This document shows positions 4,675-19,707 of a stretch of 29,701 nucleotides of DNA, piece after piece. The stretch spans positions 1 through 29,701 of the IMG/VR virus record IMGVR_UViG_3300027708_001780, one strand, 5' to 3'. The DNA comes from a virus. A program made the position numbers and the translations under genes. The first letter of the stretch is position 1; each line of letters opens with the position of its first letter. The notes beneath the pieces were generated by a model. It was not told the origin of the DNA. It searched no databases and saw only the letters and a list, made by a program, of their open reading frames with translations.

Positions 4675-5697
4675 ATGAACATTAGAGAACTTTCTCAACC
4701 CGTTACAAGTAAGAAACTTAACGAAAATATGGCCCGCAATTTAGGCTACAAATTGAACTTGGAAAAGTTCACTGATGCCCAGCTGGAAGATGCCCGCAAC
4801 AAAATGCGCACAGAAATGAGCCAATTTGAAGTTAGCGAAAGTTTTGATAGTGTTAATGCAAGCCCACAGTACCAAAAAGTACGTATGCTACATGATGTAA
4901 TCAACCAAGAGATTTTAGAACGTGAAGCCGCTATCGAAGAAGGCAAAAAAGACTTGCCAGGCAATCAAGAACGTCTCGATGTTAACAAAAATGGCAAACT
5001 TGAAAAATCAGACTTCGCGGCATTACGCAACAAGAAAAAACAAAAAGCAGAGGAAAGTATGGACAACAACATTTATTTAGGTAAGTTAGCTATGAAGGCT
5101 AAGGAACATTCAGTTCCAACTAGTTGGATTGCCGATGCTATCCGACGCATCAATTTAGGCGAAAGCGATCAAGAAGAATTGGCTAGTGAGTTACAACTAC
5201 GTTACGACCTAAGCGAAACAGTTGCCAACCACATTGTATATCTAAACGAAGGCGAAGAGGAAAAAGCCAAAATTATTATGTCCACCAAGGACATGGTTGA
5301 TCGTATTACAGGTTGGCTTGACGATGTGTCAGCTATGAAAGCCGAACAACTATTACAATTGTTAGACTCTATAAGAGAAGAACTAGGTTCAGATGTTGCT
5401 GAACAATATACACAGGCAGTTCGTCCAGCATTAGAAGAAATTTATGCAGGCTTAGAAAAAGCACGTGGTTCATTAAGTTCAGGCTTAGGAATTGTATCAG
5501 GGCAAGGCGGCGGAGAAATGATGGGCGCACAGCCTGGTCAAACTCCAGCAGTACCTGGCCAAGAAGACTTAGGCATGGAAGAACCAGGCATGGAAGAACC
5601 AGGCATGGAAGAACCTGCAAGTCCAGCAGGTCGTGAAATGAGAGAAAATTATGGCCGTAAATTAGGCATAATGTTGGCACAATCAAAAAAAAAGTAA
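4675..5697 (+). CDS. EF-hand-like putative virion/prohead protein, ending at a frameshift site
   Basis: 340 aa. Residues 102-113 form an EF-hand-type loop (Asp102, Asn104, Asn106, Gly107, Glu110, Asp113), so calcium binding is likely. Long charged helices surround it. The C-terminal part is a Gly/Pro/Glu-rich linker with three tandem copies of GMEEP. The N-terminus MNIREL resembles neighbouring starts. The frame ends just after TCA AAA AAA AAG TAA; a -1 slip on this run would add about 111 residues (to 6029). Transcribed from the TATAAATA box at 4642. Function unknown; a scaffold or internal-virion role is inferred from context. Confidence 0.8.
   Translation: MNIRELSQPVTSKKLNENMARNLGYKLNLEKFTDAQLEDARNKMRTEMSQFEVSESFDSVNASPQYQKVRMLHDVINQEILEREAAIEEGKKDLPGNQERLDVNKNGKLEKSDFAALRNKKKQKAEESMDNNIYLGKLAMKAKEHSVPTSWIADAIRRINLGESDQEELASELQLRYDLSETVANHIVYLNEGEEEKAKIIMSTKDMVDRITGWLDDVSAMKAEQLLQLLDSIREELGSDVAEQYTQAVRPALEEIYAGLEKARGSLSSGLGIVSGQGGGEMMGAQPGQTPAVPGQEDLGMEEPGMEEPGMEEPASPAGREMRENYGRKLGIMLAQSKKK
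5572..5616 (+). repeat. Three tandem 15-base repeats
   Basis: The unit GGCATGGAAGAACCA occurs three times in a row (5572-5586, 5587-5601, 5602-5616), the last differing by one base. It encodes GMEEP three times in the linker of the EF-hand-like protein. The near-identity at DNA level suggests recent expansion by slippage or recombination. Confidence 0.95.
5685..5694 (+). promoter_or_regulatory. Probable -1 frameshift site (A9 followed by G)
   Basis: Nine A then G: zero-frame codons are TCA AAA AAA AAG TAA, so the in-phase heptamer is A AAA AAG (5688-5694), the sequence used by E. coli dnaX. The -1 frame is open from 5661 to 6029 with no ATG, GTG or TTG before 5775. A possible downstream stem is CTGAAG (5698-5703) with CTTCAG (5727-5732). 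A miscounted homopolymer is the main alternative. Confidence 0.6.
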
Positions 5698-5774
5698 CTG
5701 AAGACATAGATCCATTATTAGCAACACTTCAGGCAGTTCAATCTAGCGCATTAAATAACAAATCAGTCGCTCCA

Positions 5775-6029
5775 ATGAGTTGGAGCGCACTGAATCAAGA
5801 GTTAGCACAAAGTGGTGCACCTGGCATCGAATATCAACGATTTGTAGCACGTTGGAATGATCCTAAAGATCCACTCAAAGCCAGCGGACTCATTAAAAAA
5901 TTCGACAAGAATGGTGTTATAATTGACACAGGTAGCGAGGGTGACTCACCTGAAGTGCAGGCAAAACCTGGCAAGAGCTCATTAGATACCACAGCCGCAC
6001 GTGGTGCCGCAAATACTCCTTTGGCATAA
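5775..6029 (+). CDS. Hypothetical protein, probably the -1 frameshift extension of the EF-hand-like gene
   Basis: From the ATG at 5775 the product is 84 aa, but the same frame is open and protein-like back to the A9 run (5694-5774 reads VTEDIDPLLATLQAVQSSAL and onward) with no start codon there and no ribosome site before 5775. The natural reading is a fusion to the 340-aa protein by a -1 shift. A TTAAATA box at 5751-5757, 17 bases before ATG 5775, leaves open separate late expression of the short form. The domain holds RFVARWNDPKDPLKASGLIKKF and a disordered C-terminus. Family not recognised. Confidence 0.65.
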   Translation: MSWSALNQELAQSGAPGIEYQRFVARWNDPKDPLKASGLIKKFDKNGVIIDTGSEGDSPEVQAKPGKSSLDTTAARGAANTPLA

Positions 6030-6071: not shown

Positions 6072-6788
6072 ATGACATTACTCAAAGAACGATACGATTA
6101 TACTCCCTTAAACAGGGAAAGCGTAGAAGGCAAGCGTTTATACGCAACGCCAGACGGAGGTAAACTACCATCCGTCACAACAATCCTAGACAAAACTAAA
6201 CCTTGGGAAAAGGTACAAGCCTTACTCAATTGGAAGAAAGCGGTTGGCGAAAAGAAAGCACAAGAGATTGTAACCGAGGCCGCAGGACGCGGAACCCGTA
6301 TGCACAAGTTCCTTGAAGATTATATTACACAAGGTACTATTAATCCTCCAGGCACCAATCCATACAGTGTGCAAAGCCACAAGATGGCTAACCATATTAT
6401 TGAACACGGACTTAAAAACGTAGACGAAATATGGGGTGTTGAAGTAGGCTTGTACTATCCAGGATTGTACGCAGGTACAACAGACTGTGTAGGCCTGCAC
6501 TTAGGCGAAGCCGCCATCATGGATCATAAGCAGACCAACAAGCCAAAGAAACAAGAATGGATTGAAGATTACTACTTACAAATGGTAGCTTATGCACTAG
6601 CACACAATAAAGTACATGGCACAAACATACAAAAAGGTGTTGTGTTTATGTGTGTTAAACCTCCCGAAATTAAGCCTATGACATGGGGCGAACCTGCTTA
6701 TCAGGAGTTTATCCTAACTCCGGACATGTTTGATCATTGGGAAAAGCAATGGTGGAATCGAGTGGAACAGTACTACAATCAAAACTGA
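6072..6788 (+). CDS. PD-(D/E)XK exonuclease of the RecB/Cas4-like family
   Basis: 238 aa. RecB-type nuclease motifs are in order: His78 in GRGTRMHKFLED (motif I), Glu124, Asp138 in GTTDCVG, Asp151 and Lys153 in IMDHKQ (the D-x-K core), and QxxxY at 170-174 (QMVAY). Such enzymes degrade DNA ends in a metal-dependent way, and T4-like phages carry them for recombination or host-DNA breakdown. No Cys cluster for an Fe-S cofactor is seen, unlike true Cas4. The gene has its own sigma70-type promoter and a start codon inside a stem, and no ribosome site. Confident family call. Confidence 0.88.
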   Translation: MTLLKERYDYTPLNRESVEGKRLYATPDGGKLPSVTTILDKTKPWEKVQALLNWKKAVGEKKAQEIVTEAAGRGTRMHKFLEDYITQGTINPPGTNPYSVQSHKMANHIIEHGLKNVDEIWGVEVGLYYPGLYAGTTDCVGLHLGEAAIMDHKQTNKPKKQEWIEDYYLQMVAYALAHNKVHGTNIQKGVVFMCVKPPEIKPMTWGEPAYQEFILTPDMFDHWEKQWWNRVEQYYNQN

Positions 6789-17168: not shown

Positions 17169-17771
17169 ATGCCATCAGGATTTCAAAACGCAGTCGATCA
17201 GCTACAAGCTGAAATGTATAAAGTTATTGTCGATATGTCTAACACGACATATTTCCCAACAGCGGACGGTAATGATAACGGCGGAGTTACACCAAACGCA
17301 TGGGACGCATTCACCATACCGCCAACTACACTAATTTTGGGTAAAGCCCGTGCTAGAGGAAATATGCGTTTCCGTAACGTAGTTAATCGTTTACAAGGAT
17401 TAGGCGACTGCCAAATTCGTGATATTACAATTACAGAAGCAAACGGTAGCGCACAAGCAACTAGTTTGCAATTTACAGTACTATACGAGCGTCCTTTGTT
17501 TGCGGCCCTAACAGGCGCACAGCAAGGTGCTACTACTGTTGGTAACGATATTAACGGTTCAACTATGGACACAACTGCTAAAGTAGTACGTAATGCTATT
17601 GCACAAGGCATCCGTGACACAACTACAGCAACAGCTCGTGTTTATGATCCGTCAGTCGGTGTAGGTGGTACTCAACAAAGTATCAGTGTTACCGCAACAG
17701 GACAAACAGCGGCCCAAACAATTGGCGTGTTAACTGTTACTCAAATTGACGAATCAACATTATTCGATTAA
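17169..17771 (+). CDS. Putative virion protein
   Basis: 200 aa, late promoter and strong AATAGGAGC ribosome site. Soluble and beta-rich, with charged helical and Thr/Ala/Gly-rich parts (QQGATTVGNDINGS; TATGQTAAQTIGVLTVTQ). FRNVVNRLQGLGDCQIRDITI sits in the middle. No signal or membrane segment. Context and composition suggest a structural component made late. Family not recognised. Confidence 0.75.
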   Translation: MPSGFQNAVDQLQAEMYKVIVDMSNTTYFPTADGNDNGGVTPNAWDAFTIPPTTLILGKARARGNMRFRNVVNRLQGLGDCQIRDITITEANGSAQATSLQFTVLYERPLFAALTGAQQGATTVGNDINGSTMDTTAKVVRNAIAQGIRDTTTATARVYDPSVGVGGTQQSISVTATGQTAAQTIGVLTVTQIDESTLFD

Positions 17772-17778
17772 GGACTGG

Positions 17779-19050
17779 ATGATACTTGCGTACTTACTCC
17801 TATTAACTGGTTTAACAATATCTGCGGTCGCAATCTATTACTCTGTAGTAGGTTTGACCGCAATATTTTCTGCCGCGGCCATTCCAATTATTATTATGGG
17901 ATCGGCTTTAGAAGTAGGTAAACTAGTATGCGCTAGTTGGCTCAAAGCCAATTGGGAACGTGCTCCACGTTTCATGAAGTATTATATGATCACAGCAGTG
18001 ATGGTGCTGATGCTCATTACTTCGATGGGTATTTTTGGATTCCTTTCCAAAGCACACAACGATCAAAATCTAGTAAGCGGTGATGTTCAAAGTAAGATTG
18101 CCATTTACGATGAAAAGATTAAAACAGCAAAAGACAATATAGATGCAAACCGTAAAGCTCTTAAACAAATGGATGAAGCTGTGGACCAAGTCATGGGCCG
18201 AAGCAATGATGAAAAGGGTGCCGAAAAAGCTGTTGCTATTAGACGTAGTCAGCAAAAAGAACGTGCAAGGCTTCAGTCTGAGATCGCGTCCGAACAGAAA
18301 ATTGTTGCCGCCGTTAGCGAAGAACGTTCTCCAATCGCGGCAGAAGTACGCAAAGTGGAAGCAGAAGTCGGGCCAATCAAATACATAGCCAAGTTCATTT
18401 ATGGTGAACATGGTGCCGATGAAAACATGTTGGAAAAAGCAGTAACATGGATCATTATCCTTATTGTTATTGTATTTGATCCTTTGGCAGTTATCATGTT
18501 GTTGGCCGCACAAATGACATTTGGTTGGAAACGAGAAGAGCAGAACCTGGCAAAGCCTGCAAGCATCAATGACTTTGTGCCTCAACCCACAGAGTATATT
18601 CCCAAAGAAGAAACCAAAGAACCCGAAGTAGAATATGCTATTTTGGATGACCATCATGAACCGGACTATCCAGAGTCTACGTGGCCATTCCCATCATACA
18701 ACGAAACAACCGCAGATCAAACTACAAGTATTAATCAAACTGAGGCACTAAGCGAAACGCCTGTTACAGCACTAGGAGGTGATATAACTGAGCAGGAATC
18801 GTCAGATCAAGAAATTCCACAGCCAATAGAGCAATGGAACGCCATGATTGCAGAGGCAGAAGCAGAGGCACACAAAGAAACAGTCGAGAAGGAAGCTCGT
18901 AAATATCAAATACTTCCTGAACTTGTTGAACACAACAACGAGCGCACTAAGCCTGATCTTACAGAAGTTATAGAATCCGACGAATCAAAAAAAAAGACTT
19001 ACATGACCAAGGCACCGGACGGATCAATACAGATCAAAAACCGATCATAA
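17779..19050 (+). CDS. Membrane protein with large coiled coil; ends past a frameshift site
   Basis: 423 aa from ATG 17779, after TTAAGGA; an in-frame TTG at 17746 lies inside the previous gene. Three membrane segments occupy about residues 1-20, 22-50 and 69-91. A coiled coil (about 105-205, Lys/Glu/Ala-rich) and a fourth membrane segment (about 215-245) follow, then a long acidic disordered tail. The layout recalls DUF4407-type membrane proteins, but that is a weak guess. Near the end the frame runs through TCA AAA AAA AAG (18985-18996); a -1 slip would swap the last 18 residues for about 107 others. Confidence 0.78.
   Translation: MILAYLLLLTGLTISAVAIYYSVVGLTAIFSAAAIPIIIMGSALEVGKLVCASWLKANWERAPRFMKYYMITAVMVLMLITSMGIFGFLSKAHNDQNLVSGDVQSKIAIYDEKIKTAKDNIDANRKALKQMDEAVDQVMGRSNDEKGAEKAVAIRRSQQKERARLQSEIASEQKIVAAVSEERSPIAAEVRKVEAEVGPIKYIAKFIYGEHGADENMLEKAVTWIIILIVIVFDPLAVIMLLAAQMTFGWKREEQNLAKPASINDFVPQPTEYIPKEETKEPEVEYAILDDHHEPDYPESTWPFPSYNETTADQTTSINQTEALSETPVTALGGDITEQESSDQEIPQPIEQWNAMIAEAEAEAHKETVEKEARKYQILPELVEHNNERTKPDLTEVIESDESKKKTYMTKAPDGSIQIKNRS
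18987..18996 (+). promoter_or_regulatory. Probable -1 frameshift site (A9 followed by G), second copy
   Basis: Zero-frame codons are TCA AAA AAA AAG, giving the in-phase heptamer A AAA AAG (18990-18996). The local context AATC-A9-G is identical to that at 5681-5694. The -1 frame stays open to 19319 and contains no ATG or GTG, and its one TTG (near 19140) has no ribosome site. Confidence 0.6.
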
Positions 19051-19319
19051 GCAATGATTATGTACAAAACGCCGAACAAGGCGAAAGTACATTATGGGCA
19101 AGAATTAATAAAAGAAATACTGATTTAAAACCTCGCAGTCAATTGTATGTAGAATACGGTCGCGATGAGTTCCAAGGCATAGAAGTAGACAAGGATAAAG
19201 AACCTGAGCTTTATAATTTTGTGGAAGATTGTAAAGCTAATGGTGCTCGTTTTTATGGGCACGATGAAGAAACACTAGAATATTTTGCAAGAAGGATATA
19301 TGAGCTTAGGAAAGATTAA
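18996..19319 (+). CDS. -1 frame extension of the membrane/coiled-coil protein
   Basis: An open frame of 107 codons follows the A9 run in the -1 frame and fills the otherwise empty stretch 19051-19299. It reads as real protein ([58 protein letters not shown]) and stops at TAA 19317-19319, overlapping the next ATG (19300) by 20 bases as neighbours in this genome do. Without a start codon it is best explained as the tail of a frameshift fusion. A homopolymer sequencing error would give the same picture. Confidence 0.62.
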   Translation, partial: DLHDQGTGRINTDQKPIISNDYVQNAEQGESTLWARINKRNTDLKPRSQLYVEYGRDEFQGIEVDKDKEPELYNFVEDCKANGARFYGHDEETLEYFARRIYELRKD

Positions 19320-19707
19320 TTTGATAACACCGCCCGATAAACTGTTCAATATGAATTTAGGTTATCTTTTGGTTAAACCGTCATTGCATGTTAAACAACA
19401 ATTTCAAACTATATTAAGTCATAATGTAGAGGAAATCAATGTGTTTATATATGATGAAAACGAACACGATATTGATTGGTTGTTAAGTGTTGCCAATCAG
19501 TGCGATGTTACTATTATTGATATTGATAATTGTGACCCAACAACTCATAAGTTTGTCACTTATTTGTTAGCCCAGCCCAATACACATTATATAACTAACG
19601 ACGAGATTACTCCTTACGGTTTAATCAACAAAAACAGAATTTACAATTTGGACTGGATTGTACAACAATTTAACGACAACGAAGAAGAGGATGATACTGA
19701 TGAGTAG
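19300..19707 (+). CDS. Hypothetical protein
   Basis: 135 aa from ATG 19300 with AAGAAGGA just upstream. Alternating strands and helices ([58 protein letters not shown]) suggest a Rossmann-like alpha/beta fold. The tail is acidic ([11 protein letters not shown]). The 3' end overlaps rpsU by 8 bases. No catalytic motif recognised; I recall similar unannotated proteins in T4-like phages. Confidence 0.75.

Follow-up and report, generated by a model that had tools for sequence, protein, structure and literature searches.

How is an open reading frame translated that follows a virion-protein gene in the -1 phase and has no start codon near its beginning? This question is raised by the gene at position 4675 of the window, i.e. 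of the IMG/VR virus record of 29,701 bases that was scanned. The initial annotation had proposed a programmed -1 frameshift at its 3' end. Re-reading of the letters confirmed that the gene ends with TCA AAA AAA AAG TAA, that the heptamer A AAA AAG, which also occurs in E. coli dnaX, lies in zero-frame phase, and that the open stretch of the -1 frame spans 5661-6029. The earliest ATG, GTG or TTG of this frame is the ATG at 5775, and no Shine-Dalgarno (SD)-like 4-mer is found ahead of it. The extension, previously estimated at about 111 residues, comprises exactly 111 and would give a fusion of 451 aa together with the 340-aa part. When the 29.7-kb window was scanned mechanically for in-phase heptamers followed by an orphan -1 frame, two places emerged, 5688 and 18990. 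Elsewhere in the genes of this family, KKK occurs 64 times and is never written AAAAAAAA(A/G), and there are no further A runs of eight or more. Because the scan yields two places and KKK is never so written elsewhere, the pattern at the junction exceeds chance. The features of the locus are compiled in the following table.

Coordinates of the features at the two sites of the window
Feature	Position	Strand	Description	Basis
Zero-frame gene	4675-5697	+	340 aa; helical, disordered acidic/Pro linker, C-terminal helix	AF2, PHROG, family HMM
A9 run	5685-5693	+		read from sequence
Slippery heptamer A AAA AAG	5688-5694	+	zero-frame phase; family-invariant element	
Zero-frame stop TAA	5695-5697	+	directly 3' of the heptamer	
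-1 frame extension	5694-6029	+	111 aa (5694-6026) plus stop; winged-helix-like fold predicted; likely counterpart of GAP32_294/CBB_299	
Weak six-pair stem	5698-5732	+	CTGAAG (5698-5703) / CTTCAG (5727-5732); candidate stimulator; poorly kept in nearest relatives	
Strong hairpin	5763-5793	+	about 70 nt downstream; kept in the window and its four nearest relatives	
PD-(D/E)XK exonuclease (next gene)	6072-6788	+	same neighbour in cultured jumbo phages	
Host gene of second site	17746-19050	+	434 aa, membrane-like	
Candidate second site TCA AAA AAA AAG	18985-18996	+	heptamer 18990-18996, A9 18987-18995; next codon ACT	
Second -1 extension	18996-19319	+	107 aa plus stop; no start codon before +147	

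Two contigs with mutually identical sequence in this region were retrieved when the -1 part was first used as query; they show 75% protein identity to the window and have the same A9 run and frame. Alignment scans with the upstream protein identified several hundred relatives, and the best 80 per scan were kept. The 150 junctions considered below, mutually less than 90% identical, come from the closer members of a set of at least 500 relatives. The end of the upstream gene was placed by means of an HMM, and the frame of the downstream homologue was determined by applying a second HMM to all stop-to-stop frames. A DNA-pattern scan was biased to A9, but 104 of the 134 junctions with a heptamer come from protein searches and are independent of it.

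Among the junctions of these nearer relatives, 134 of 150 contain A AAA AA(G/A/C) in phase and 0-4 codons from the stop, with no intervening sense codon in 121 cases; as the rows share descent, these are not 134 independent events. The downstream homologue is in the -1 frame in 134 of 134. Each junction without an ATG of its own thus possesses an X XXY YYZ heptamer in zero-frame phase ahead of the stop. The run is A9 in 118, A10 in 12, A8 in two and A6 in two junctions, and the last base of the heptamer is G in 114, A in 14 and C in six. The site is kept in divergent relatives, given that the identity of the upstream protein drops to about 40% within the clade; the second codon of the -1 frame is variable (ACT, ATT, AAT, AGT and others). 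A9 is not universal: runs of A6 and A8 came to light when the marine branch was examined in an unbiased protein-level search. In L292 (positions 1220-1290) the slippery run is doubled, TCAAAAAAAAAGATCTAACTGATTCAAAAAAAAAGATAGC, which results in two nearby A9 runs.

Homopolymers are error-prone, and a missing A in the assembly had been named as an alternative; the locus would then be a plain single gene disrupted by a sequencing error or by a recent frameshift mutation. This explanation is excluded. Many independent metagenomes contain the same run and frame, in about 120 junctions altogether; none of these offers a single open frame, and the A6 and A8 variants keep the arrangement as well. A run of A10 had been expected to indicate a single gene, but the A10 variants carry AAA for AAG and the -1 relation is therefore unchanged. 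Furthermore, the -1 part is under purifying selection, with dN/dS values of 0.24-0.26 against the three nearest relatives at a dS near 1.

The other 16 of the 150 junctions lack the heptamer, and their downstream gene starts at its own ATG on or after the stop (TAATG, ATGA, TAAATG). The presence of the heptamer and the absence of the ATG coincide in every row. The initial annotation had held that its proposal would fall if the downstream part always had its own start codon and ribosome site; relatives with such a start exist, and they are exactly those that lack the heptamer. It could be argued that the downstream part is generally translated alone, by re-initiation after the TAA at a weak or non-AUG start. 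The separate gene with its own ATG in these relatives and in Rak2-like phages would fit this explanation, and re-initiation is plausible where the ATG overlaps the stop. However, a start codon 5' of the A run is found in none of 101 junctions, no start position 3' of the run is conserved, and 54 of the 101 contain no ATG, GTG or TTG up to +45. Moreover, re-initiation does not need the heptamer, yet the heptamer replaces the ATG row by row. Re-initiation is thus very unlikely.

The extension has a length of 98-129 aa in all complete cases and contains no internal stops. AlphaFold2, applied to an alignment of 97 sequences, modelled a compact H-E-H-H-E-E domain with a disordered tail; the pLDDT of residues 1-80 is 78-94 in blocks of ten. 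A Foldseek search of PDB and BFVD with this domain gave nothing at E≤0.001. The best PDB matches are winged helices, all of low confidence, none significant and none indicative of a function; the fold is predicted to be winged-helix-like. In the wider comparison the median dN/dS of the -1 part is higher than that of the upstream part (0.56 versus 0.23, at nearly saturated dS), which points to faster evolution, as would be the case if the heptamer were a relic and the domain a decaying pseudogene. Decay is nevertheless hard to reconcile with a uniform length, a conserved fold, the lack of stops and a single ancient gain that was retained clade-wide, and the probability of this explanation is negligible. 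What is observed beyond the zero-frame stop is an open -1 frame under selection at the protein level.

For the upstream protein, the label of an EF-hand-like virion protein had been proposed. The virion part of this label agrees with the homologues found, the EF-hand part is weak: the sole match was Dockerin_1 with E=0.008, which is below the cut-off of that profile, and the motif is absent in near relatives, e.g. L009 and L010. The protein matches PHROG 14154 (E=4e-8), and the family HMM matches seven Rak2-like proteins, among them GAP32_293 and CBB_298, with E-values of 1e-15 to 1e-18. The protein core is about 30% identical to virion structural proteins of Rak2-like jumbo phages. The gene order of these phages, namely structural protein, a protein of about 110 aa and PD-(D/E)XK exonuclease, is that of the window, and a ribonucleotide reductase (RNR) follows downstream both in GAP32 and in the window. 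Sequence homology and synteny hence place the protein in this structural protein family. In GAP32 and CBB the two parts are neighbouring separate genes; the second has its own start and, in the Rak2-like phages, mostly a clear ribosome site, e.g. GGAGGTACTATG in GAP32. A profile comparison of the -1 domain with the GAP32_294/CBB_299 type gave E=1.6e-4 and a probability of 51. Together with synteny this makes it likely, but not certain, that the Rak2-like protein of about 110 aa is the counterpart of the -1 domain. Both CBB_298 (10 peptides) and CBB_299 (2 peptides) were identified by mass spectrometry of CBB virions (PMC5259590, Table 4). A tblastn search of INPHARED with the two parts of the window and of several relatives found no match at E≤0.01; at E≤10, only the core of the upstream protein reached Rak2-like phages. 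No relatives were found in bacterial or archaeal genomes. Relatives of the window are represented by contigs of up to 330-400 kb, which encode a T4-type Gp23 capsid protein.

Taken together, the conservation of the site, the frame relation, the extension, the missing start codon and the own-ATG alternative are very probably explained by a programmed -1 frameshift. Most ribosomes would read the A run in frame, terminate at the TAA and release the 340-aa virion protein. Some would slip back by one base on A AAA AAG, where the tRNA-Lys in the P- and A-sites could re-pair with AAA AAA. The slipped ribosomes would continue with GTA ACT GAA... and produce the 451-aa protein with the C-terminal 111-residue domain. 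The predicted junction peptide of the fusion is SKKKVTEDIDPLL..., and the junction-spanning sequence would be SKKKVTEDIDPLLATLQ..., with the tryptic form VTEDIDPLLATLQAVQSSALNNK. Both products presumably enter the virion in a fixed ratio.

The fusion could also arise without any slip of the ribosome, if RNA polymerase slipped on A9, altered the A count of the mRNA and the edited message was translated normally. The initial annotation had listed this alternative, and A9 is indeed long enough: 9 As or Ts allow efficient slippage, and nine is a length where bacterial RNA polymerase slips well (PMC5009743). The run is A9 or A10 in 130 of the 134 junctions. In addition, the third base of the fourfold-degenerate codon that precedes KKK is A in nearly all rows, an A that the heptamer alone could do without; but NCA is the preferred codon anyway (59-69%), and the two overlapping heptamers contained in A9 would account for the run as well. 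A run of about nine or more is present in the window, but not family-wide. One lineage possesses only A6 (GGA AAA AAG TCG TAA in L297, TCA AAA AAG TCG TAA in L308), and in L270 and L304 the run is A8 after TCT with the heptamer still in phase. The RNA structure described below lies downstream of the run and not upstream, where nascent hairpins that promote slippage form. In E. coli, A_AAA_AAG combined with a stimulator ranks among the top three heptamers in efficiency (PMC4066793). Because the A6 lineage keeps the heptamer, the structure is located downstream and this heptamer is efficient in E. coli, a slip made by the ribosome is clearly favoured, and polymerase slippage appears improbable.

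The downstream structure is most pronounced in freshwater sequences. In 101 junctions the mean z at +10..+55 is −2.25, and it is -3.99 in a freshwater group of 57 members, 88% of which have a z below −2. Windows wholly upstream of the run have a mean z of −0.8 or weaker. For the freshwater hairpin, the covariation is 0.218 versus 0.122 +/- 0.009 in shuffles, 84% of the cells are paired versus 78.2±0.6 in shuffled and 29-53% in slid alignments, and both sides have changed in 21 cells versus 5.0±1.9 (shuffled). Examples of covarying stems are CCCTTAGT/ACTAAGGG, CCGTTAGT/ACTAACGG and CCTTTAGT/ACTAAAGG. The largest freshwater clade thus has a covarying hairpin behind the site, which is not clear in the window's own clade: it was not found in the window and its near relatives, where z is +0.6 at +10. 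The spacing of the freshwater hairpin is roughly 9-14 nt, in some cases more than 20 nt, and is longer than the usual 5-9 nt. Rows with their own ATG also show downstream structure (z -1.2 to -2.0). It is plausible to assume that the hairpins stimulate the slip. An SD-like stimulator upstream of the heptamer, which is an optional feature, was not seen; SD-like 4-mers occur in 6-8% of the junctions in bins of 8-24 nt. An Rfam search at the site gave no match. The ATG at 5775, which is the only in-frame ATG of the -1 ORF, sits atop the strong hairpin.

The history of the site was deduced from a tree of the upstream protein (154 rows), which was built without the site itself. The heptamer and own-ATG states require two changes on this tree. 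Most simply, these are one gain at the base of the 134-row clade (SH-aLRT 92) and one return in L274, L285 and L290. These three form a marine branch that has an own ATG (TAATG), has lost the heptamer and is nested among relatives with the frameshift site; a return to two genes is therefore probable. Homology of the downstream gene in this branch is an independent result, because the branch was left out when the downstream HMM was built.

The second place detected by the scan, about 13 kb away, is a candidate for another conserved -1 frameshift site of the same kind, judged by its letters and its relatives. Here, the zero frame stops after 17 more codons. Sixteen virus records were searched, and the extension is encoded in 12 of them, namely in the window and in 11 relatives. 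Its length is 104-113 aa; in all 13 copies the junction contains a run of A8-A11, and ATG, GTG and TTG are absent before +90. When both strands of a 356-kb relative were scanned mechanically for an orphan -1 frame behind A AAA AA(A/C/G), these two genes were the only ones found. Record G006 contains a second copy of the host gene at 38.6-40.0 kb. At 19285-19704, the ATGAGC start of the next gene and its AGGA ribosome site overlap with the end of the second extension, whose conserved RIYELRK end may in part reflect this overlap. A 636-aa protein encoded at 20975-22885 matches PHROG 22485 over its full length (E 9e-272).

Both sites can be combined in a tentative scenario, which we rate at somewhat under an even chance. 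In a clade of jumbo phages, a translationally coupled gene pair, whose start overlapped the stop in -1 phase, could have become a frameshift fusion once and been kept through diversification. With the same TCA AAA AAA AAG cassette also placed in an unrelated gene for a membrane protein, a single slip rate, set by tRNA-Lys and A-run length, might then fix the stoichiometry of two proteins.

The locus is most likely an old, conserved programmed -1 frameshift site in a gene that encodes a virion protein of uncultured T4-type jumbo phages. As the downstream domain has no start codon, it is either overlooked by automatic annotation or reduced to a spurious short gene beginning at the ATG 5775, an error repeated in many jumbo-phage contigs. 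The reading predicts a virion protein in two forms in phages whose cultured cousins make the parts separately. The family appears to have passed from a coupled gene pair to a frameshift fusion, with one reversal, and would thereby provide a natural test of how programmed frameshifting originates. The A6 sites of L297 and L308, whose junctions lie near 2770, are useful naturally occurring variants with which a slip of the ribosome can be told apart from one of the polymerase. No article describing frameshifting in these phages was found in the open-licence literature. Frameshifting in phage structural genes is already known, and the case presented here is a further instance for which we found no earlier report.

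Compared to E. coli dnaX, the heptamer A AAA AAG, its phase and the -1 direction are the same. In dnaX, however, the -1 product is the short one and an SD-like stimulator lies upstream at the usual spacing, whereas here the -1 product would be the long one, no such stimulator is seen and the stop directly follows the heptamer. For the transcriptional slippage of Thermus dnaX and of Shigella type III genes, 9 As or Ts suffice, which the A9 of the window would provide; unlike in these systems, the run goes down to A6, the heptamer is kept in phase and the structure is located downstream. The G/GT frameshift of lambda produces a tail-assembly chaperone. The virion homologue described here has no chaperone profile match, and its neighbours are an exonuclease, a tail-spike-like protein and RNR, whereas the lambda-type chaperone precedes the tape measure gene and also differs from the CBB case, where both parts are virion proteins. 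GAP32_293/294 and CBB_298/299 have a homologous upstream protein and the same gene order, but consist of two genes, the second of which has an SD sequence and an ATG, and there is no slippery run. The closest parallels are structural genes of phages in which frameshifting generates C-terminal extensions, namely gene 10 of T7/T3 and genes of Lactobacillus phage A2 and Listeria phages A118/A500/PSA (PMC5009743). As predicted here, a virion protein is made in two lengths and the C-terminal domain is added by frameshifting. In those phages, major capsid or tail proteins are concerned and Ig-like domains are often added. In the jumbo myoviruses studied here, the partners would be an uncharacterised helical virion protein and a winged-helix-like domain, which is a separate gene in the sister phages.
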